Source: Terriglobales bacterium
Lineage (GTDB): Bacteria; Acidobacteriota; Terriglobia; Terriglobales; Acidobacteriaceae
Length of the DNA: 64,000 nucleotides
Assembly: GCA_030038475.1 (NCBI GenBank)
Contig: JASHOU010000123.1
Location: 1-64,000, forward strand
Reading direction: 5' to 3'
Position numbers and translations under genes: made by a program. A model generated the notes under the pieces. The model saw only the letters and a list, made by a program, of their open reading frames with translations. It was not told where the DNA came from and ran no database searches. This document shows, piece by piece, positions 21,431 to 55,100 of this stretch. Every line of letters starts with the position of its first letter. The first letter of the stretch is position 1.

Positions 21431-21450
21431 GCCCGGTAAATTTACCGGGC
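21431..21450 (-). terminator. 20-bp perfect palindrome, probable terminator of the M48 gene
   Basis: GCCCGGTAAA followed by its exact complement TTTACCGGGC. On the minus strand it is followed by TGCTGTTTTGC, only moderately T-rich. It lies 80 bp past the M48 protease stop and 26 bp before the riboswitch, so it should separate the two transcripts. A protein operator is an alternative. Confidence 0.6.
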
Positions 21451-39839: not shown

Positions 39840-41255
39840 GTGCACGACTCACAATTCGACGTTCTGATCGTTGGTGGCGGGTTTAGCGGCACAATGCTGG
39901 CCGTACACTTGCTGCGCAGCTCTTCGTCCTTGTCCGTCGCCATCGTCGACCGTGGGGCGTTGCCGGGGCGAGGCCTCGCCTATAGCAGCCCGCATCGATT
40001 TCACCTGCTTAATGTACCCGCGGGCGAGATGAGCGCATGGCCCCACGCACCCGACGATTTCCTGCGCTGGGCGCGAACCCACTACGATCCCGCCGTGCAA
40101 TCGCGCAGTTTCCCTCCGCGCTCTGTTTACGGCGCGTATGTGGCCAGTTTATTGGAAGCAACCCTGGCCGACGGCGGTCGCGAGCGTTTTCAATGGATTC
40201 AGGACGAGGCGCTTTCGCTGCATCGTCGCAAAGGGAAATTTGGTATCCAAACGAAGGTAGGCGCTGAAATCTTGGCGCGGGCGGTGGTGCTGGCCACCGG
40301 AAATTTTCCGCCCGCCAACCCCAGCGTGCCCGGACTGCAAACCTCAACCGGCCTGTATTTCCAGTTTCCGTGGGACAGCGCTGCCCTGAACAACCTTCCA
40401 ACCGGCGGCAGTGTTTTGCTGATTGGTTCGGGACTCACCAGCGTCGACCTCATCATGACGCTCAAATCGAAGGGGTTCCGCGGGGTGATTCATGTGATTT
40501 CGCGGCAGGGATTGTTTCCACGGTCGCGCCGGCACGAACGCCAGGACGAGTCTTGGCCTTTGTTCTGGAACGAAAAATCTCCCCGAACTGTGCGTGGCTT
40601 GCTGCGGTTAATTCGTCAACAGGTACAAGCGGCAGCCGACCGGGGCATCGACTGGCGGGAGGTGATCGACAGCCTTCGACCGGTTACACAGGACATTTGG
40701 CGCACCTTTCCGCTCCAGGAGCGGAAAAGATTTCTGCGCCATGTCCGTGCCTATTGGGATGTGCATCGTCACCGCGTCGCACCCGAAATCGGTGACGTAC
40801 TCGTCGACATGCAGAATGACGGGCAAGTCCGCTTGCATATGGGAGCGATTACGCGATTCTCCGCGGACCGCGAACGTGCCGAGGTACATTACTGGGATCG
40901 GAAGAGCCGCAGTGAGAAAACGTTGCACGCCAGCCGCGTGATCAATTGTTCGGGATCCGAATCCGATTGCCGCCGTATCGATGAGTCGTTTATCACTAGT
41001 TTGTTCGTGCAGGGATTCGCGCGGCCCGATCCTCTTTTTTTGGGCCTCAACGTCGATGGCAACGGTGCATTGATTGATTACCAGGACATTCCGTCTGATC
41101 GGTTGTACGCCATCGGACCGACCCGCAAAGGATGTCTGTGGGAGACCACGACCGTGCCCGAGATTCGCGTCCAAGCCGCCGCTTTGGCAGAACATTTAGC
41201 GGGCGCGCTCGGGCACAGCCGTGGCAGGTCTCGAGGTGTTCTCAGAACTGCCTAG
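39840..41255 (+). CDS. FAD/NAD(P)-binding protein of the sulfur island
   Basis: A 471-residue flavoprotein starting with GTG at 39840. The N-terminal FAD motif is VLIVGGGFSGTM, and LLNVPAGEMSAWPH follows. A second dinucleotide-binding motif (LLIGSGLTSVDLIMTL, about 195-210) should bind NAD(P)H. This is the wording of the FAD-NAD(P)-binding family PF13454, which often sits in gene sets for scavenging organosulfur compounds. It may reduce flavin for the nearby monooxygenases or oxidise a sulfur compound itself. It has its own sigma-54 promoter. Confidence 0.82.
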   Translation: MHDSQFDVLIVGGGFSGTMLAVHLLRSSSSLSVAIVDRGALPGRGLAYSSPHRFHLLNVPAGEMSAWPHAPDDFLRWARTHYDPAVQSRSFPPRSVYGAYVASLLEATLADGGRERFQWIQDEALSLHRRKGKFGIQTKVGAEILARAVVLATGNFPPANPSVPGLQTSTGLYFQFPWDSAALNNLPTGGSVLLIGSGLTSVDLIMTLKSKGFRGVIHVISRQGLFPRSRRHERQDESWPLFWNEKSPRTVRGLLRLIRQQVQAAADRGIDWREVIDSLRPVTQDIWRTFPLQERKRFLRHVRAYWDVHRHRVAPEIGDVLVDMQNDGQVRLHMGAITRFSADRERAEVHYWDRKSRSEKTLHASRVINCSGSESDCRRIDESFITSLFVQGFARPDPLFLGLNVDGNGALIDYQDIPSDRLYAIGPTRKGCLWETTTVPEIRVQAAALAEHLAGALGHSRGRSRGVLRTA

Positions 41256-41301
41256 TCGGGGTCGCTCTGCAACATTTGCGCGCGGTTGTCCTAAGCCTGG
41301 G

Positions 41302-41329
41302 CTTTTACCACTGATCTTTTACCACCGAT
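41302..41329. repeat. Two 14-nt copies (2 x 7) across the ssuB stop
   Basis: CTTTTACCACTGAT is followed directly by CTTTTACCACCGAT, one base different. The array sits at the convergent ends of the FAD protein and ssuB genes and includes the ssuB stop codon. Confidence 0.65.
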
Positions 41330-42170
41330 CCTCGACAACCCTCCGGCGTTGAAGCACACGGCCAAGTATGCGTTCTTCAAGCGCGGCAAAGCGGGTGCCG
41401 CCGCGAGTTCGTGGTCGGGGTATGTTTACGACTTCATCCAAGGCGACACAGCCTCCCTCAATCAGGATGACGCGGTCCGCCAGACTTATGGCCTCGGCAA
41501 CGTCATGAGTTACTAGCATTGCCGTAAAACCGCGGCTTCGCCAAATGTCTTCGATGAGTTGTTGCATTTCGATGCGAGTGAGCGCGTCCAACGAACCAAG
41601 CGGTTCATCGAGAAGCAGCAAATTGGGATCATGGACCAGAGCGCGAGCCAGTGCGACCCGCTGACGCTGCCCGCCCGATAAGGTAGCAGGCCAGTCGCCG
41701 GCTCGTTCTGCCAGACCAACTTGCGCCAGGACTTTTCGCGCCTGCGGGATGAGTGCAGGCTCCAGGCCGAGCATGACGTTGGGAAGGACTCGTCTCCACG
41801 GCAGGAGGCGAGAATCCTGGAACATGACCCGAACATCAGGACGAGCTTCAGGACGAACAGCAGAACGAACAGGCGGCCGGAGATCGGGCTTGCCGTCGTG
41901 CTTTCTGGCGTGTTCTGCCACGTTGCCCAGGGTAATGGTTCCGGCCTGCGGCGTTTCCAAACCAACGACTGAACGCAGTAGAGTACTTTTGCCACATCCG
42001 CTGCGGCCGACAATGGCGACAAACTCACCGGCGGAAATCTCAATGTCAAAGTTTTCCAGCACCGTGCGTCCACCGAAGGCAATGCTGACACTCTGGATTC
42101 TGACTGAGACGCCACGCGAGCAGCGCCGGTCCCCAGTCGCGATCTCTCCCGAACTGCAAGTGACAGGCAA
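41319..42170 (-). CDS. ssuB: Sulfonate/taurine-type ABC transporter ATP-binding protein (system 1)
   Basis: A 283-residue ATPase. Walker A is GRSGCGKST, the Q-loop [13 protein letters not shown] is of SsuB type, the signature is [16 protein letters not shown], and Walker B is LLLLDEP with H-loop THD. An insert of about 30 Arg/Pro-rich residues lies before the Q-loop (near 85-115). The likely start is TTG at 42170 with GAGG upstream, ten bases after the permease stop. It energises the permease encoded just upstream. Confidence 0.9.
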
Positions 42171-42179
42171 AGTGATCCT

Positions 42180-42995
42180 CTATCGTGCCCTCTGATATGC
42201 CGGATTCCAGCGCAACCAGTAGCGTTCCAATCCTTTCGCCAGAAGGTCGGCGAGCTTCCCTAAAACCGCATAAAGCAAAATGCCGACCACCATGACGTCC
42301 GTCTGCATGAATTCACGTGCGTTCATCGTCATATAGCCAATCCCCGAGCGCGCTGAAATGGTTTCGGCAACGATCAAGATCACCCACATTAGCCCGAGAG
42401 AGAAGCGCACGCCTACGAGAATCGACGGCAACGCTCCGGGCAGAATGATCTCGCGGTACAAAGGCCAGCCCGACAGGCCATAAGTTCGCCCCATTTCCAG
42501 AAGTCCGCGATCGACGGAGCGAATCCCGTGAAAGGTGTTGATGTAGACAGGGAAAAAAACGCCCAGCGAGACCAAAAAAAGCTTGGCCGATTCGTCGATG
42601 CCGAACCACAGAATGACCAGAGGAATGAGCGCCAGGGGAGGAATGTTGCGAACCATTTGAATGGTGGTATCGAGTAGAGTCTCAGCCCAATGCAGTGAAC
42701 CGGTGAGTAATCCAAGTACAAGTCCAAGGCCGCCGCCCATGGCGAAACCTGCCAAGGCGCGCAGAGTGCTGACCCGGACATGCATCCACAATTCGCCAGA
42801 GGCGCTGAGCGCGATGAATGAACTCACCACCGCCCGTGGTGAGGGCAGGAAGCGGCTGGGCAGGATCCCCGCGGAGGATGCCGATTGCCAAACCATCAAC
42901 AGCAAAATCGGTACGACCCAAGGCAAGGCTTGCTTCGCCAGAACACTCGGCCGAAGTTGGGTCTTCCAGGCAGGACTTTTCTGACGCTCGCTCAT
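42180..42995 (-). CDS. ssuC: Sulfonate-type ABC transporter permease (system 1)
   Basis: A 271-residue inner-membrane permease with six helices. The coupling motif is EMGRTYGLSGWPLYREIILPGALPSILVGVRFSLG, the EAA loop that contacts the ATPase. The best matches in wording are SsuC/TauC. It starts at the ATG at 42995, which is embedded in a heptad repeat. It lies between ssuA and ssuB of the same transcript. Confidence 0.92.
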   Translation of the reverse strand: MSERQKSPAWKTQLRPSVLAKQALPWVVPILLLMVWQSASSAGILPSRFLPSPRAVVSSFIALSASGELWMHVRVSTLRALAGFAMGGGLGLVLGLLTGSLHWAETLLDTTIQMVRNIPPLALIPLVILWFGIDESAKLFLVSLGVFFPVYINTFHGIRSVDRGLLEMGRTYGLSGWPLYREIILPGALPSILVGVRFSLGLMWVILIVAETISARSGIGYMTMNAREFMQTDVMVVGILLYAVLGKLADLLAKGLERYWLRWNPAYQRAR

Positions 42996-43041
42996 GGTTC
43001 CTCTTTCATGGTTCGTCGCTCATAGTTCCTCGTTCAGCGTT
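42993..43041. repeat. Seven adjacent heptads filling the ssuA-ssuC gap
   Basis: From 42993 every seventh base restarts a C-initial word that mostly ends in TT (CATGGTT, CCTCTTT, and so on). CATGGTT occurs twice, with CATAGTT as a variant. The array includes the ssuC start codon and the ssuA stop codon, so the whole 38-bp spacer is repeat. Confidence 0.7.
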
Positions 43042-44017
43042 TAGCCTGGGTTCCCGTCGACGCCCCCTGCAAGGTCGCATCTCGGACATTAATGTGCTTG
43101 GGAATTAACTTGAGGTCGTAGAATGCGTCCGCGATTCTTTGTTGCTCCGCCAGCACAGTATCGCTGACTGGCATGACCCCGTAGCCGCCCCGCGAAACTG
43201 CCAACTCAAGCGTCGCTTGATCCAAACCGATCTGCGGTTGCAGCGCTGCGGCTGCCTCCTTTGGATTTGTTTTCGCCCACTGATCTACACTTGCCAACTC
43301 CTCCGTGACGATCGCAACCACATCTGCCCGTTTCGTGGCGTAGGATCGGGAAGCAAGAAAGAACTGGTGATTGCTGACTACACCGTTGCCATCGGCGAGA
43401 ATGCGAGCGCCGGTTTGCCTTTGCGCGGCGGCAAGAAACGGCTCCCAGATCGCCCACGCGTCCACGCTGCCGCGCTCGAAAGCGGCTCGTGCATCCGCCG
43501 GCGTCAGGAAAATTGTGTCTATGTCTGTGTACCGCACGCCTGCCTTTTCCAACAGTTTGACCAGCAGAAAGTGAACGTTGGAGCCTTTGTTGAGCGCCAC
43601 TTTCTTGCCCTTGAGTTCGGCGACCGTCTTGATGGGCGAATCCTTGGGAACCACGATGGCCTCAGCCGCCGAAGCGGGCGGCTCGTTTGCGACGTAAACC
43701 AGATCCGCTCCGGCGGCCTGGGCGAAGATGGGCGGAGCCTCGCCCACCGTCCCGAAGTCGATGCTTCCCACGTTCAGACCTTCGAGCAATTGCGGACCGG
43801 CCGGAAATTCGGTCCATTTGACCTCAACGTGCAGCGGAGCCAGCCGTTTCTCCAAACTACCGCGAGCTTTCAGCAGCACCAGTGTGCCGTATTTCTGGTA
43901 TCCGATTCGTAGGACGTTATCGGCGCTCTGGGCCGAAGCAAATTGCGCTAAAGCCATTAGGACCAGGACAGGTGCCACGATCGTGCTGTGAAACATTACC
44001 GCTAGAGAATTGCGCAT
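43034..44017 (-). CDS. ssuA: Aliphatic sulfonate ABC transporter substrate-binding protein (system 1)
   Basis: A 327-residue periplasmic binding protein with a signal peptide (1-29, ending FASAQ). The body shows the NMT1/SsuA fold: LRIGYQKYGTLVLLKARGSLE, DFGTVGEAPPIFAQAAG, LKGKKVALNKGSNVHFLLVKLLE and SVDAWAIWEPFLAA. These match SsuA closely. It follows the SfnB-like gene by 40 bp, and ssuC and ssuB come after it, giving one operon of four genes. Confidence 0.93.
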   Translation of the reverse strand: MRNSLAVMFHSTIVAPVLVLMALAQFASAQSADNVLRIGYQKYGTLVLLKARGSLEKRLAPLHVEVKWTEFPAGPQLLEGLNVGSIDFGTVGEAPPIFAQAAGADLVYVANEPPASAAEAIVVPKDSPIKTVAELKGKKVALNKGSNVHFLLVKLLEKAGVRYTDIDTIFLTPADARAAFERGSVDAWAIWEPFLAAAQRQTGARILADGNGVVSNHQFFLASRSYATKRADVVAIVTEELASVDQWAKTNPKEAAAALQPQIGLDQATLELAVSRGGYGVMPVSDTVLAEQQRIADAFYDLKLIPKHINVRDATLQGASTGTQAKR

Positions 44018-44057
44018 AAGTCTGAGCCCTTAGTCGATCTTGTTCTACGAATAATGT

Positions 44058-45263
44058 TCAGGAATAAAATGAGGGCTTCGGAAGCCGGCGATTCAATGCC
44101 CAGTCTCCCAGCTCACGAATCTTGTAATCGACCGGATCATGCAACGTGTGAGTGCGCAGGTTGCGCCAGAAGCGATCGATCCTGGCGGGGCCGGCGGCGG
44201 CGCGCGCTCCCATTACTTCGAACATCCGGCTGGTGATCTCCAGGCCGACCTTGCTGGTGGTCACCTTCGAAGCTGCCACGTCCAGCGTGCACTTGCCACG
44301 CTGATTTTCAGTGATCGCGTCTCCGCTCTCCCAGGCTCGCTGCAGAGACTCTCCCGCGATGTCTGTGAGGGCTTGCGCTCCCTGAACGCTGACAAAGAAA
44401 TTTCCGTAATTCGCCAGAATGTACGGATCATCCGTGGCACTCTGCGCAGTTGATGTAATCCATGGCCTGGTTTGCGCCAGAGTGTAGTTGCGCGATTCCT
44501 CCAGCGCCCCTTCGGCAATTCCCAGAAAAATGTTGCTGAGAATCAACTGCGCAATGCACGAACGCAAGGACGCCCTGATGCTCCCCAGCGGGCCGGGCGT
44601 CTTCAAGAACTCTTCCTGTCCGGCGGCCACATCGCAGAACTCCACGGTTCCGCTGTCGGTCTGCCGCTGTCCCATCGCATCCCAGTCGTCGAGAATGCGA
44701 ATCCCTGGCCGGTCAGATGGTATCGCGGCCACCACGAACTTTTCGTCTACGGAGCGAATCGCGGAGACGATCAGCATGTCGGAGTCGACCGCGCCGGAAC
44801 AAAAACTCTTGCGCCCGTTGATGAGGTACCCCACACCGCACTTGGACGTAAGGCTTGTACGCTTGTCGAGCGGATTGAGCGCGTTGCCCCAGAACCATTG
44901 ATTGCGCACGGTTTCAGAAAAGAGCTCTTCGGTCTGTGCCCAGGATCCGTAAAGCGACACGGAAGCCAGCATGAGATGCTGAAAGCCGAACAGATGGGCA
45001 ATCGAACTATCGACACGGGCGAAGACTCGTATGAGTTTCATCGTGTCCGGCCATTCCATTCCCCAACCGCCCAACTCCGCCGGAATCGTCACGTTGAGTA
45101 GTCCGCTCGCGCGCAACAGGTCTCTCTCAATCTTTGCCGTGCCGCCTCGCTTATCGCGTTCAACGGCGGTTTGAGCAAATGCCGCTGTCAATTGATCGGC
45201 AATCTCGAAAGCATGTTGCCGGGGCGGAACGTTAACTGCGATGTGATTCATCGTAGAAAGCAC
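44058..45263 (-). CDS. SfnB/DszC-like flavin-dependent monooxygenase (acyl-CoA dehydrogenase fold)
   Basis: A 401-residue enzyme of the acyl-CoA dehydrogenase superfamily in the sulfur-acquisition branch (SfnB, DszC). The N-terminal helical domain, the middle beta domain (WFWGNALNPLDKRT, YLINGRKSFCSGAVDSDMLIV) and the C-terminal four-helix bundle are all present. The catalytic Glu of acyl-CoA dehydrogenases is not obvious, as expected for oxygenases. GTG at 45263 is chosen since GGAGG lies six bases upstream. It probably oxidises a sulfone, sulfoxide or thiophene-type compound with reduced flavin, feeding SsuD. It is first in the operon with ssuACB. Confidence 0.85.
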   Translation of the reverse strand: MLSTMNHIAVNVPPRQHAFEIADQLTAAFAQTAVERDKRGGTAKIERDLLRASGLLNVTIPAELGGWGMEWPDTMKLIRVFARVDSSIAHLFGFQHLMLASVSLYGSWAQTEELFSETVRNQWFWGNALNPLDKRTSLTSKCGVGYLINGRKSFCSGAVDSDMLIVSAIRSVDEKFVVAAIPSDRPGIRILDDWDAMGQRQTDSGTVEFCDVAAGQEEFLKTPGPLGSIRASLRSCIAQLILSNIFLGIAEGALEESRNYTLAQTRPWITSTAQSATDDPYILANYGNFFVSVQGAQALTDIAGESLQRAWESGDAITENQRGKCTLDVAASKVTTSKVGLEITSRMFEVMGARAAAGPARIDRFWRNLRTHTLHDPVDYKIRELGDWALNRRLPKPSFYS

Positions 45264-45348
45264 TACAGTCCTCCTGTGTCGTCAGGCGTGTGACGCCATA
45301 TCGCGCGCAGATGCCCACTGCTGCCCCAGCAGCACCTCTGCTGAATTG

Positions 45349-45366
45349 GTGTTGCTATAGCAACAC
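45349..45366. promoter_or_regulatory. 18-bp perfect palindrome, candidate activator site
   Basis: GTGTTGCTATAGCAACAC is its own reverse complement. It sits in the divergent region, with its edge 80 bp upstream of the -24 box of the ssuD promoter. That is the distance at which enhancer-binding proteins such as the SfnR-like regulator normally bind. GTTGC/GCAAC half-sites recur upstream of the sigma-54 promoter at 39763. Confidence 0.65.
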
Positions 45367-45445
45367 ACCCCGATTGACCGAACGGCCTGACAATCCCCGT
45401 AACCGCGTGAAACTTGAAATTCATGGACATAGCCGCACTCCTCTG

Positions 45446-45464
45446 TTGGCAAGACAATTGCCAA
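45446..45464. promoter_or_regulatory. Sigma-54 promoter that reads in both directions
   Basis: TTGGCAAGACAATTGCCAA has perfect arms TTGGCAA/TTGCCAA. On the plus strand GG (45448-45449) and GC (45460-45461) are ten bases apart, as sigma-54 requires. The minus strand gives the same spacing and also TTGGCA with TTGCC. It lies 41 bp before ssuD and 183 bp before the SfnB-like gene, so one site could drive both operons. Confidence 0.7.
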
Positions 45465-45504
45465 AGCTCAGATGGAACTCAGTCCCGGAAAGAGATCGCT
45501 AAAC

Positions 45505-46671
45505 ATGGAAGTATTCTGGTTCTTACCAACTCACGGCGACGGTCGCTACCTTGGAAGTGCCGAGCAGGCCCGAACCGTCAACTACGGATACTTGAAGCAA
45601 ATTGCTCTAGCCGCCGATCAGCTTGGCTTTCAAGGCGTGCTACTGCCTACCGGCCGGTCGTGTGAAGACGCGTGGGTCGTTGCGTCAACTCTGGTCCCGG
45701 TAACCACTAGGCTGAAGTTCCTGGTCGCGATTCGTCCCGGCATTACTTCTCCCACGGCTGCCGCGCGAATGGCCGCAACGTTCGACCGGCTGTCCGAGGG
45801 ACGGCTGCTGATTAACGTCGTTACGGGCGGCGACCCAGATGAAGCGCTCGGCGACGGCGTTTTTCTTACTCACGATCAGCGCTATGAAGTGACGGAGGAA
45901 TTTCTCCAGATATGGCGTGAGGCAGTCGGGGGCAACGCAATTACGTTGAAAGGTAAGCATCTCCACGTAGAGAACGCGAAGGTCTTGTATCCGTCAGTGC
46001 AAAAGCCACATCCCCCGCTCTACTTCGGGGGATCTTCCAAGGTTGCTTATGGGTTGGCGGCGCGGCAGGTCGATGTTTATCTCACCTGGGGTGAACCGCC
46101 ACAGGCGGTTGAAGAAAAGGTTGCGACAGTTCGGCGTCTGGCTGAGGAAGAGGGTCGCTCCGTGCGCTTCGGCATTCGCCTGCACGTCATTGTTCGGGAA
46201 ACGGCGCAGGAAGCGTGGGACGCAGCGAACGATCTGATTCGTTACGTCGACGACGACACGATTGCCCGCGCACAAAAAACATTCGCGCGATTCGATTCCG
46301 AAGGCCAGCGCCGCATGGCGGAGTTGCATCGCGGCGGTCGCGAAAAACTGGAAGTAAGTCCCAATCTCTGGGCAGGCGTGGGCCTCGTGCGCGGAGGCGC
46401 CGGCACAGCGCTGGTTGGCGATCCAGCCACGGTGGCGAAAAGAATGCAGGAGTACGCCGAACTGGGAATTGAGACGTTCATTCTTTCCGGTTATCCGCAC
46501 CTTGAAGAGGCGTATCGCGTGGCTGATTTGCTGTTTCCACATCTGCCGGTTTCGTCGTCGAAATCGGAGAAATCGGTTGGCAACATCACTGGCCCGTTCG
46601 GAGAACTGGTCGCGAACGAATATCTACCGCGCACGACCGCGGCGGCGCCGGTGCCGGCGCAACAGAGTTAG
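45505..46671 (+). CDS. ssuD: FMNH2-dependent alkanesulfonate monooxygenase
   Basis: SsuD-type enzyme of the luciferase-like family that releases sulfite from alkanesulfonates, using reduced FMN and oxygen. The 388-residue protein begins [17 protein letters not shown], as in SsuD. It contains [48 protein letters not shown] and [17 protein letters not shown], and ends with the family's PHLPVSS region. It starts at the ATG at 45505 behind AAAGAGA. No dedicated flavin reductase SsuE is adjacent; the FAD/NAD(P) protein of the island may serve. Confidence 0.94.
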
Positions 46672-46722
46672 CCACGAGCGGCATCCGGTTTCATCTTCCG
46701 CACGATCCACAGAGGAGGAAAG

Positions 46723-47748
46723 TTGAGCAATCAGAAGTTGAACAATCAGAAGAGGCCGAGGCTCGCGCTTCTGGTCGCTGTTTTGATCATTATTAACGCG
46801 GCGATGTCGGCGAGTTGCAGCCGCAGGGCTTCTGTTAAGCCCGCGATCATCAGGCTCGACTATGCCTATTACAACCCCGTGAGCCTGGTGCTGAAGGATA
46901 AGAAGTTTCTGGAGCAGGATCTCGCCAGTGATGGCATTTCGGTTGAATGGACACAGAGCTTGGGCAGCAACAAAGCGTTGGAATTGCTGAACAGCAAGAG
47001 CGTCGACTTTGGGTCGACGGCTGGGGCCGCGGCGCTCATCGGAAAAGCGAACGGCAATCCGATCAAAGCTATCTATGTCTACTCCCGTCCCGAGTGGACC
47101 GCTCTGGTCGTTCGCAAAGACTCTTCCATCACGAAAGTCGCAGATCTCAAAGGCAAGAAAGTGGCCGTGACGCGCGGGACCGACCCCCACATATTCTTAT
47201 TGCGCGCGCTCCACGAATCAGGGCTGACGGAAAAAGATATTGAGATGGTGGTGCTGCAGCATCCCGACGGGAGAATTGCACTCGAAAAAGGAGACGTGGA
47301 TGCCTGGGCCGGTCTGGACCCGATGATGGCGCAAACCGAGTTGCAGAGTGGCTCTCGGCTTTTCTATCGGAACGTGAACTTCAACAGCTACGGTGTACTC
47401 AACGTGCGCGAAGAGTTTGCCCGCCAATATCCAGCGTATGTCGAGCGCGTGCTGACAGCCTATGAGAAGGCTCGTCTCTGGGCCCTTCGGAACCCCGAAG
47501 AATTCCGCAAATTATTTGCCACCGACGCCAAGCTCGATGATTCTGTCGTCACGAAAGTTCTGGAGCGCACAGACCTCACCAATTCGACGATTGGAGACAA
47601 CCAGCGACAGGTGATTATCGCCAGCGGCGACGTGCTGAAGCAAAACAACGTGATCGATAGTGGCGGTGATGTGAATGCAACTGTGAACAGTCTGATCGAT
47701 CCTCAGTATGTGCGAGACGTGGTCAACAAAAACCTGGCTCAGAAATGA
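46723..47748 (+). CDS. ssuA: Sulfonate-type ABC transporter substrate-binding protein (system 2)
   Basis: A 341-residue binding protein starting with TTG at 46723, since GAGGAGG is seven bases upstream. The first 15 bases are duplicated in tandem, so residues 1-10 repeat (SNQKLNNQK). A hydrophobic signal (LALLVAVLIIINAAMSASC) ends in a Cys that could be a lipobox. The fold motifs are RLDYAYYNPVSLVLKDKK, DFGSTAGAAALIGKA and LKGKKVAVTRGTDPHIFLLRALHE. It is clearly different from the SBP of system 1, so the two transporters probably take different substrates. Confidence 0.9.
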   Translation: MSNQKLNNQKRPRLALLVAVLIIINAAMSASCSRRASVKPAIIRLDYAYYNPVSLVLKDKKFLEQDLASDGISVEWTQSLGSNKALELLNSKSVDFGSTAGAAALIGKANGNPIKAIYVYSRPEWTALVVRKDSSITKVADLKGKKVAVTRGTDPHIFLLRALHESGLTEKDIEMVVLQHPDGRIALEKGDVDAWAGLDPMMAQTELQSGSRLFYRNVNFNSYGVLNVREEFARQYPAYVERVLTAYEKARLWALRNPEEFRKLFATDAKLDDSVVTKVLERTDLTNSTIGDNQRQVIIASGDVLKQNNVIDSGGDVNATVNSLIDPQYVRDVVNKNLAQK

Positions 47749-48584
47749 GCACCGCGGAGCAGAACCGAAGGCTCGTGCGCAAAGGATCTACTGCGGAATT
47801 AACGGCCAAAGCGCCGAAAAACATCGGACGAATCCATATTCCAGATCGGCTTCTGGGCTGGATCATTCCTGTGAGCGTGCTGCTCGTGTGGCAACTCCTC
47901 GCGCGCCTCGGGGTGCTTCCCGCTAATTGGCTGCCTGCGCCGACGATCGTCGGCCAAACAATCTATCAGTTAACCGTTGCGGGCGACTTGTTGAAGCACG
48001 TGGGAATTACTATCGCCCGCGTGGGGGTTGGATTTCTGCTCGGAGCGAGCGCAGGCACGCTTTTCGGCGGTCTTACTGGTTACTTGCCAGTGGCGCGCAA
48101 ACTATTGGATCCCACATTGCAGGCGTTGCGAAGCGTTCCTTCCATAGCGTGGGTTCCACTCTTCTTGTTGTGGCTGGGTATTGGAGAGACCTCGAAAATT
48201 ACTCTGATCGCCCTCGGTGCGTTCTTTCCCGTTTATCTGAATCTCTCGCTTGCCATGCGTCACGTCGATCCAAAGTTGCTTGAGGTTGGCAAGTTATACC
48301 GGCTTAGCAGTTTTCAAATGGTGCGCCGACTGATTCTTCCGGCCGCCTTGCCCGAATACATCGTCGGGCTTCGCAGCGGATTGGGCCTGGCGTGGATGTT
48401 TGTCGTTGCGGCAGAGCTTTTGGGGGCGAGCAGCGGGATCGGATATCTCATGGTGGACGGCGAGATGACGGGTCGCGCTGGCGTCATCTTAGCCAGCGTG
48501 ATACTTTTCGCCATCTGCGGCAAAACGACCGACTGGATGATGAATGCGGCCGGCCGCAGGCTTCTCGGCCACAGAGCCCGCTAA
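47745..48584 (+). CDS. ssuC: Sulfonate-type ABC transporter permease (system 2)
   Basis: A 279-residue permease with six membrane helices. The EAA loop is EVGKLYRLSSFQMVRRLILPAALPEYIVGLRSGLG. The ATG overlaps the stop of the binding-protein gene by four bases (ATGA), indicating translational coupling. The first 40 residues are a polar cytoplasmic extension. Confidence 0.92.
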   Translation: MSTAEQNRRLVRKGSTAELTAKAPKNIGRIHIPDRLLGWIIPVSVLLVWQLLARLGVLPANWLPAPTIVGQTIYQLTVAGDLLKHVGITIARVGVGFLLGASAGTLFGGLTGYLPVARKLLDPTLQALRSVPSIAWVPLFLLWLGIGETSKITLIALGAFFPVYLNLSLAMRHVDPKLLEVGKLYRLSSFQMVRRLILPAALPEYIVGLRSGLGLAWMFVVAAELLGASSGIGYLMVDGEMTGRAGVILASVILFAICGKTTDWMMNAAGRRLLGHRAR

Positions 48585-48636
48585 CCCACACTCGGTGAGG
48601 CTCATTCCACCGGCCTCGGCGAGAGCAATTCAACGT

Positions 48637-49476
48637 ATGGTCTTCGATTATGGTCAACCATCTATGGTCAACAATGGTTTCGCTCAACGCGGCACGGTCA
48701 ACATCGAAATCGCCCGTAAGGCCTTTTCAGGTTCCAAGGGCACTCTCCTGGCGTTGAAAGATATTGTGCTGACCATCAACCCCGGAGAATTCGTGTGCAT
48801 TGTCGGCGGCAGTGGCTGCGGGAAGACCACCTTATTGAGAATCATTGCCGGCTTGGAGACCGAATATGAGGGCGCCGTTTTTCTCGACGGCAAGAAACTC
48901 ATAGGGACCGGCTTGGATCGTGGTGTGGTTTTCCAGGAGCACCGCCTCCTTTCGTGGCTCACGGTGCATGACAATGTCGCTTTTGGACTTGCAGGTCTGC
49001 CTCCCCAGGAACGCAGCAGAAAAGAACGCAGCCGAGACATTCGGCACTACATCAACTTAGTTGGGCTGGATCGGTTCGAATATGAATATCCTCACCAGCT
49101 TTCCGGCGGCATGTCCCAGCGTGTGGCCGTTGCGCGAGCACTGGTGGGTCGTCCTGAAGTCCTGTTGTTGGACGAACCATTCGCGTCCCTGGATGCTCTG
49201 ACTCGAATGCGTATGCAACAGGAGATCCTGCGTATTTGGGAAGCTGAGCGAACCACGGTCGTCCTGGTCACCCACGACATTGAGGAAGCGGTCTATCTTG
49301 CCGATCGGGTGGTCATCATGTCTCCGCAGCCAGGCACCATTAGAAATATCCTTCCGGTCCGCTTGTTACGGCCGCGCGACCGTACCGATCGAGAATTTGT
49401 CCGCATACGGAAATCGATCCACGATGAATTGTTTGCGCCTCGCGGAATGACACATCTGGCTGCCGACAGTTTCTAA
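48637..49476 (+). CDS. ssuB: Sulfonate-type ABC transporter ATP-binding protein (system 2)
   Basis: An ATPase of 279 residues. It has Walker A (GGSGCGKTT), Q-loop (VVFQEHRLLSWLTV), signature (LSGGMSQRVAVARALV), Walker B (VLLLDEP) and switch His (THDIEEA). The start is uncertain: 48544 would overlap the permease, 48637 has GAGAG upstream, and 48664 is nearest to the conserved domain. The spacer in front is a heptad repeat containing TATGGTC three times, which argues against the longest form. Confidence 0.9.
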   Translation: MVFDYGQPSMVNNGFAQRGTVNIEIARKAFSGSKGTLLALKDIVLTINPGEFVCIVGGSGCGKTTLLRIIAGLETEYEGAVFLDGKKLIGTGLDRGVVFQEHRLLSWLTVHDNVAFGLAGLPPQERSRKERSRDIRHYINLVGLDRFEYEYPHQLSGGMSQRVAVARALVGRPEVLLLDEPFASLDALTRMRMQQEILRIWEAERTTVVLVTHDIEEAVYLADRVVIMSPQPGTIRNILPVRLLRPRDRTDREFVRIRKSIHDELFAPRGMTHLAADSF

Positions 49477-49485
49477 CTTTCGGTA

Positions 49486-50577
49486 TCAGGAAGGATCGAA
49501 TGAAGCTCTCAGTTTTCTACCCTTGGGCAGCTCACCGCATTGCATCAGCTTGGCCCGAACGATATTCCGGCTGATGCCGAGTAGACGGGCCGTCTGAACT
49601 TGGTTGCGATGACAGAATTCATAGGCTGTTCTCGTAATTGCTGTCTCGATCTCTGCGTAAAGATTCGGACGGCCATCTTCAAAAAGGGCCAGTAGCGCCT
49701 CATGCAACGCTTCGAAGGGTTGGACTTGACCACTAGTCGCGATGCGCAGCCCGAGCGGAGAAAGCCTCAAATCTTCTGGTCTGACTACATTTTCCCGGCA
49801 AACCAGCAGCGCGTGGTGGATGACATTTTCCAGTTCTCGCGTATTGCCTGGCCAGGAGTGCCCGCGCACCAGCACATCGATCCCCTCCGCGCTCAGTGCG
49901 GGATCCTTAAGTCCCAGCCGTTCCCCATAAACTCCGAGAAAATATTGCGCCAGGGGCAGAATGTCACCCGGACGTTCGCGCAAAGGAGGAATATGCAGCG
50001 TGGCAACCTGCAGCCGGTAATAAAGATCTTCGCGGAAGCGTCCGGCGGCAACCGCATCCTCTAGATTCACGTTGGTCGCCGCTACCACGCGAACGTCAAT
50101 CGCAACCGGACTACGCGAACCCAGCCTGACTACTTGGCGCTCTTGCAGCACTCGGAGCAACTTGACTTGCATGGCAAACGGCAAATCTCCGATTTCATCC
50201 AGAAATAACGTTCCGCCACGGGCCGCTTCAAACCATCCCGCTCGAGCTACCGTTGCTCCCGTGAATGAGCCGCGCTCATGACCAAACAATTCGCTCTCCA
50301 CCAGACTTTCAGAAAAAGCTCCGCAATTCACCGCTACGAACGGACCGTCGGCGCGTGGGCTCAACTTATGGACGTGTCTGGCGATGAGTTCCTTGCCGGT
50401 GCCTGTTTCCCCAGTGACTAGGACATTTGCGGTGCTCGGTCCGATCAATTGAATTCTTTCGAGTAGCGCCTTGGACTTAACGTCTTCAAACACCAGGGCA
50501 GACGCCTTTGGGCTAAATGGCGCGACGAGCGGCCCGGGAAAACTGAGAAGTGCCTTGGGAATTGGCGCGAGAGACAC
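49486..50577 (-). CDS. Sigma-54-dependent activator, SfnR-like, without sensory domain
   Basis: A 363-residue enhancer-binding protein. The AAA+ domain begins almost at once (about residue 30): Walker A GETGTGKE (56-63), the sigma-54 contact loop GSFTGA (103-108, a GAFTGA variant), Walker [10 protein letters not shown] (to 131), and the sensor FREDLYYRL. The C-terminal Fis-type HTH is [20 protein letters not shown]. There is no receiver, GAF or PAS domain, as in SfnR of pseudomonads, so activity is probably set by its amount. It should activate the GG-N10-GC promoters of this island. It converges on the system 2 operon. Confidence 0.9.
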
Positions 50578-50588
50578 TGTATAAACCC

Positions 50589-50635
50589 TACTATATACAT
50601 GGACATTATAGTATAAGGTGGGACGGTCGTGTCAA
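50589..50635 (-). promoter_or_regulatory. Sigma-70-type promoter of the activator gene with overlapping operator
   Basis: On the minus strand a perfect TTGACA (50630-50635) and a perfect TATAAT (50605-50610) are 19 bp apart, slightly long. The inverted repeat TACTATA (50589-50595) / TATAGTA (50607-50613) overlaps the -10 box and would suit a repressor. The activator itself is thus probably made under sulfur control by another regulator. Confidence 0.6.
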
Positions 50636-50700
50636 GCGCATGATGCTCGCGAAAGTTACCCTACCCAACTAAACCCTCACATTCTACGAGGGCAAGACTT

Positions 50701-50777
50701 TGGTGGCGGCGGTTGGACTCGAACCAACGACCTACGGATTATGAGACCGTCGCTCTAACCACCTGAGCTACACCGCC
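50701..50777 (-). tRNA. tRNA-Met (anticodon CAT, elongator type)
   Basis: A full cloverleaf on the minus strand. The acceptor arms GGCGGTG and CGCCGCC pair with one wobble, the D arm contains GCTCAGGTGGTTAGAGC, the anticodon loop is CTCATAA, and the T arm contains GGTTCGAGTCC. A discriminator A and an encoded CCA end the gene at 50701. The first acceptor pair is G-C, unlike initiator tRNA with its mismatch, so it is an elongator. A CAT anticodon changed to lysidine (tRNA-Ile2) cannot be fully excluded. Confidence 0.93.
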
Positions 50778-54506: not shown

Positions 54507-55100
54507 ATGAGTGAACTGGCAACAGCAACGCGAGTCCCCGTTGACGTGCTGGTAGAGAAACTGCGCCTGCTCCCGGGGAGCGCTTTCGATGGAACCGAAC
54601 AGATTCTTTCTCTACTCGAGAAGTTGCCGGTCGCCGTGACCAGTCTCGCACCTTATTTGACTTGGGACCGCCAGCATTACACGCGCAATTTGATCGACAA
54701 GACCGAGTTCTACGAACTGATCGCCATTTGTTGGGAGGTCGGCCAGTTCAGCTCGGTGCACAATCATCGCGACCAGAATTGCTGGATGGCAGCTCCGGTG
54801 GGGAATCTCCTCGTAGAGAATTTTCACGTCGAATTTCAGGATATCGAGGCGGGAATGTGCCGTTTGCAGGCATCTAACACCGTGGAGTTGACGGCGGCAA
54901 GGCCGTGTGCGGTCGATCCGCGCGAGCCGGTGCATCGGGTGGTGAATCCTCGGGACGCGAACCAGCGCGCGGTGACGTTGCACGTTTACTCGCGCCCGTT
55001 TGACAGCTGCGTGGTCTATTCGCCCGAGCAGGGAACGTGCGGGGATATTCGCCTTCACTACAATACAGTTTTCGGAAAAGCGGTTGGCGGTAGCCAGTAG
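54507..55100 (+). CDS. Cysteine dioxygenase family protein
   Basis: A cupin that oxidises cysteine to cysteine sulfinate with non-haem iron. In the 197-residue protein the iron ligands are His85, His87 and His143 (VHNHRDQNC and VHRVVN). Tyr161 in HVYSRP and Cys92 would form the Cys-Tyr cross-link typical of the family. It stands alone, 4 kb from the sulfonate island, and adds to the sulfur theme of this region. Confidence 0.92.
   Translation: MSELATATRVPVDVLVEKLRLLPGSAFDGTEQILSLLEKLPVAVTSLAPYLTWDRQHYTRNLIDKTEFYELIAICWEVGQFSSVHNHRDQNCWMAAPVGNLLVENFHVEFQDIEAGMCRLQASNTVELTAARPCAVDPREPVHRVVNPRDANQRAVTLHVYSRPFDSCVVYSPEQGTCGDIRLHYNTVFGKAVGGSQ

Follow-up and report, generated by a model that had tools for sequence, protein, structure and literature searches.

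A 19-bp palindrome at positions 45446-45464 of the window, by which we mean the whole 64,000-nucleotide stretch of a Terriglobales genome analysed here (Acidobacteriota; GCA_030038475.1, contig JASHOU010000123.1), probably supplies the -24/-12 element of a sigma-54 promoter that drives ssuD-ssuACB in one direction only, served by an SfnR-like activator on two enhancers. The site reads TTGGCAAGACAATTGCCAA, a perfect inverted repeat with 7-bp arms and a 5-bp spacer, and both of its strands satisfy GG-N10-GC. On the minus strand to one side lie a gene for a DszC/SfnB-like flavin monooxygenase with an acyl-CoA dehydrogenase fold (dszC; 44058-45263, GTG start, AGGAGG at 45270-45275) and ssuA, ssuC and ssuB-like genes (41319-44017); on the plus strand to the other lie the alkanesulfonate monooxygenase gene ssuD (45505-46671; NF001939 and TIGR03565 over cut-off) and a second set of ssuA, ssuC and ssuB-like ABC transporter genes (46723-49476). 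The initial annotation had described the repeat and its place between these divergent operons exactly as we find them, and had read it as back-to-back sigma-54 promoters firing in both directions. 'Back-to-back' is inaccurate, as the two reads overlap fully, so that at most one holoenzyme could be bound at a time.

As abstract properties, neither the GG-N10-GC rule nor the 7-5-7 repeat is rare. The window contains 8 perfect 7-5-7 inverted repeats, 377 GG-N10-GC matches on one strand and 40 places where both strands obey the rule (that is, GGC-N9-GCC), as do 9 of 135 (7%) E. coli sigma-54 sites, whereas the window and the 4.46 Mb genome hold a single perfect match to the full 19 bp. What goes beyond chance at 45446-45464 is the full sigma-54 consensus match together with its conservation. 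We derived a scoring matrix from 135 E. coli sigma-54 sites located by ChIP (PMC4591121, Tables 1 and 2) and applied it to the window; among 127,968 positions the forward read, TTGGCAAGACAATTGCC (GG at 45448-45449, GC at 45460-45461, predicted transcription start near 45473), ranked second, with a score of 13.8 that corresponds to the 46th percentile of the E. coli sites. Its GG-N10-GC sits inside a TGGCACG-N4-TTGCW-like sequence, and rpoN, on whose presence the initial annotation had made its promoter depend, is encoded elsewhere in the genome (E 9.4e-61, over cut-off). Searching genome-wide for TGGCACG-N4-TTGC with one mismatch returned 75+65 matches against 41+47 for a reversed control, and because of this noise no regulon can be defined from the motif. 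The most likely start of ssuD is the ATG at 45505, which follows the predicted transcription start by 32 nt and has a GGAAAGAG ribosome site; we prefer it because the other candidate, the ATG at 45472, precedes the predicted transcription start at 45473 and is not conserved.

Upstream of the promoter we found two palindromic sites of the enhancer type TGTTGC-N4-GCAACA, overlooked in the initial annotation. Predicted site 1, TGTTGCTATAGCAACA (45350-45365), is the core of a perfect 18-bp palindrome, GTGTTGCTATAGCAACAC (45349-45366), between the promoter site and dszC, and its centre lies 91 bp from the -24 GG. Predicted site 2, TGCTGCCCCAGCAGCA (45319-45334), is a degenerate copy centred 31 bp, or about three helical turns, upstream of site 1. 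The pattern TGYTGCYNNRGCARCA occurs at two places in the whole genome, both in the dszC-ssuD gap. The sole other perfect 18-bp palindrome in the window is CCCGGTAAATTTACCGGG, at 21432-21449.

The protein that would bind these sites is probably the product of the minus-strand gene at 49486-50577, a 363-aa SfnR-like sigma-54 enhancer-binding protein whose gene is convergent with the forward operon at the end of the island. It combines an AAA+ domain carrying a GSFTGA loop with a C-terminal Fis-type helix-turn-helix and has no receiver domain; its predicted targets are desulfurization genes, as in the SfnR regulon. We call it SfnR-like on the strength of its Acinetobacter relatives and its gene context. 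Among 396 genomes of the phylum, a search at E <= 1e-90 found it in just two, each of which has the island. The region upstream of the activator gene (50560-50650) contains an inverted repeat, ACTATA-N11-TATAGT, immediately ahead of the start codon and overlapped by a sigma-70-like promoter (TTGACA ... TATAAT-like). The related loci L007-L009 preserve TTGACA, CTAT-ATGTC-AT and ATA-TA but not the sequence further upstream. A separate repressor that senses sulfur may use the repeat as its operator.

Together, these elements suggest how the forward promoter would work. Under sulfate limitation, the SfnR-like activator would bind the enhancers at 45319-45334 and 45350-45365 and loop to sigma-54 polymerase poised at 45446-45464; ATP hydrolysis by the activator would then open the promoter, with transcription beginning near 45473. 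The sequence, its conservation, the enhancer spacing, rpoN and the activator gene are observed, while the binding, the activation and the sulfate signal are inferred. The near-symmetry of the site would arise from the consensus itself, TGGCA followed by TTGCC, and a single C-to-A change, seen also in locus L004, would have perfected the palindrome.

To place the site in its family, we sought orthologues in 298, 398 and 45 genomes, which yielded seven usable gaps in only one family and two genera: those of the window, L003, L004, L005, L006, L007 and L010. Loci of the same sequence drawn from two collections were counted once (L003/L008, L004/L009, L007/L025 and L010/L026), and L027, whose sequence stops before the site, was left out. 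All seven genomes have the site, with GG-N10-GC on both strands. Fifteen of its 19 columns are invariant, compared with 13 of 80 in the upstream spacer and 6 of 38 in the leader. The core reads TTGGCACGACAATTGCC in four genomes, ATGGCACGAGAATTGCC in one and TTGGCAAG in the window and L004. Five genomes thus carry TGGCACG-N4-TTGC, pointing at ssuD, with C in place of A at 45452; judged by its letters, this common form is a near-perfect, textbook forward sigma-54 promoter. Its forward scores of 15.4-16.8 fall at the 73rd-88th percentile of the E. coli sites, and those of the relatives as a whole (13.2-16.8) at the 35th-88th. With A at 45452, the window copy gains its symmetry, its forward score drops to 13.8 and its reverse score rises from 5.45 to 9.85. 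Alignment of the gap in related genomes, a check proposed in the initial annotation, accordingly upholds the forward site in all seven genomes and shows the symmetry broken by C at 45452 in five of them.

Enhancer spacing is equally regular: measured from the -24 GG, the near copy is centred at 91-92 bp and the far copy at 122-123 bp in each of the seven genomes. It recurs in the sulfur island of Acinetobacter rudis (L014), which resembles that of the window in its two activators (54-55% identical to ours, with the same C-terminal helix-turn-helix core), its enhancer motif and its ssuD-like and DszC-like genes. There the distance from motif to promoter is 92 bp for ssuD, 93 bp for a promoter preceding a flavin-reductase-like gene, and 94 bp for both promoters of a divergent gap, with one mismatch in two of the four sites and two mismatches in one. 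Nothing argues more strongly for the forward reading, and for these being the activator's sites, than this spacing, which two phyla share along with related activators. The fixed 91-94 bp spacing of the motif could be used to predict activator targets in unannotated genomes.

These data also bear on whether the palindrome merely resembles a promoter by chance, with the operons using other promoters. The 8 repeats and 40 two-strand sites of the window make such a coincidence conceivable, but conservation against diverged flanks, the second-ranked forward score and a spacing held in two phyla speak against it, and we reject it as exceedingly improbable. It is also very unlikely that the inverted repeat is, in addition or instead, the operator of a dimeric regulator overlapping the sigma-54 promoter. 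TGGCA-N7-TGCCA, invariant in all seven genomes, would be compatible with a bound dimer no less than with sigma-54; the position-by-position sigma-54 fit and the enhancer at a regular distance speak against an operator, as do the single occurrence in the genome and the lack of any known candidate regulator. The evidence thus supports well an SfnR-type sigma-54 promoter that serves ssuD in one direction.

Whether the same 19 bp could also fire toward dszC deserves closer scrutiny. Polymerase would bind in either orientation, one excluding the other, and the activator would open the promoter toward ssuD or toward dszC. The reverse read, TTGGCAATTGTCTTGCC (45446-45464, minus strand; predicted start near 45437), is a weak, putative sigma-54-like match that scores 9.85, the 6th percentile of the E. 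coli sites. This is the best two-strand score in the window, where the next best is 6.83, and a reverse score of this height is expected 0.03 times per gap. The conservation of GG-N10-GC on both strands in all seven genomes favours two-way firing, as does the stretch AATTGCCAAA, which includes the full reverse -24 element TTTGGCAATT and is invariant in all seven genomes amid flanks that have diverged to about 40% identity in a distant pair. Within it, C45462 and A45463-A45465 never vary; CCAAA completes the reverse -24 element TTTGGCA. A C at -11 is disfavoured among forward sites (11 of 135 in E. coli), yet it is fixed here; this C and the AAA that follows are not predicted by a forward-only view and count against the one-way reading. 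The invariant CCAAA is one point in favour of symmetry that could equally be explained by contacts of forward polymerase at -11 to -8, and with seven sequences from one family, forward and reverse constraint on these positions are inseparable. Moreover, scans of all seven gaps, which included the position 92 bp to the dszC side of either enhancer, revealed no promoter of dszC's own, of either sigma-54 or sigma-70 type, which leaves the reverse operon unexplained by a strictly one-way reading.

Against this stands the quality of the reverse match outside the window. The six relatives score 5.45-7.26, L004 lying at the 1st percentile of the E. coli sites, and the reverse -12 element is GTGC in the five genomes with C at 45452, whose scores fall under those of all 135 E. 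coli sites; a good, full-length reverse match is therefore not conserved. Compliance with the two-strand rule is itself found in the 7% of E. coli sites noted above. A reverse promoter would further require an enhancer upstream at the distance typical of this activator, near 45554 inside ssuD, where we found none with up to two mismatches; the enhancers lie instead downstream of the reverse GG, by 104-105 bp for site 1 and 135 bp for site 2. Enhancers are able to act from downstream in other systems, so their location lowers the likelihood of reverse firing and does no more than that. The divergent gap of A. rudis shows the ordinary solution: there each of the monooxygenase genes (1227- and 1838+) has a predicted sigma-54 promoter to itself, and 94 bp from each promoter stands an enhancer of its own.

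Taken together, these observations make true two-way firing unlikely, and reverse transcription toward dszC from 45446-45464 would be at most a weak side activity. We consider distinctly unlikely the fuller scheme in which the two divergent desulfurization operons share one symmetric site, polymerase binds it in either orientation, and a single pair of enhancers, acting from upstream on ssuD and from downstream on dszC, activates both; the C-to-A change would then have shifted the window lineage from mostly forward toward balanced transcription. The sigma-54 promoter proposed in the initial annotation therefore survives in the ssuD direction, backed by consensus, rpoN, activator, conservation and regularly spaced enhancers, and its symmetric two-way form finds little support, given the broken symmetry, low reverse scores, missing upstream enhancer and paired Acinetobacter promoters. 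Its further proposal, that one activator couples both operons, fares better: joint control is plausible, given that the enhancers are situated between the operons.

Several known systems can be compared with this site. In Pseudomonas, SfnR-dependent sigma-54 promoters drive sfnFG for dimethyl sulfone use (Endoh 2003, 2005, as cited in PMC13352529); SfnR is likewise a receiver-less sigma-54 activator, and SfnB-like and luciferase-like monooxygenases are among the desulfurization genes in both cases, whereas the activator here belongs to an acidobacterium and has ssuD and dszC-like operons, not sfnFG, as its neighbours. E. coli hycA and hypA are divergent and both sigma-54 dependent (PMC4591121, Table 1; Lutz 1990), as the two operons here may be, but use two sites about 130 bp apart rather than one shared site. 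Symmetric bidirectional promoters are established for sigma-70 (PMC12825309, Warman and colleagues), in which a pseudo-symmetric core element likewise admits polymerase in either, mutually exclusive, orientation; there the symmetry lies in the sigma-70 -10 element, and a term search of that article found no mention of sigma-54. Nor did the open-access articles that we searched describe any symmetric sigma-54 promoter shared by two operons. If two-way firing were true, symmetric bidirectional promoters would extend from sigma-70 to sigma-54, with an activator in principle choosing the direction, and the seven natural variants of differing symmetry would make it testable. The one-way promoter, with its enhancers and activator, already makes up a well-defined candidate circuit by which Acidobacteriota would scavenge sulfur under sigma-54 control.

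The island as a whole (39840-50777) is absent from sampled members of the window's genus and present in a neighbouring genus, with up to 91-93% protein identity. A tRNA-Met gene (50701-50777) marks its edge, and the flanking genes tyrS and kdsB were not found beside the island within the available stretches of L007-L009. This distribution suggests that the island was likely acquired by horizontal transfer. Beside ssuD, L008 lacks the second ssuACB set and L009 retains no more than a part of ssuA, which brings the activator gene adjacent, or almost adjacent, to ssuD in these loci. A cysteine dioxygenase-like gene (PF05995) lies at 54507-55100 of the window, a few kb from the sulfur island.
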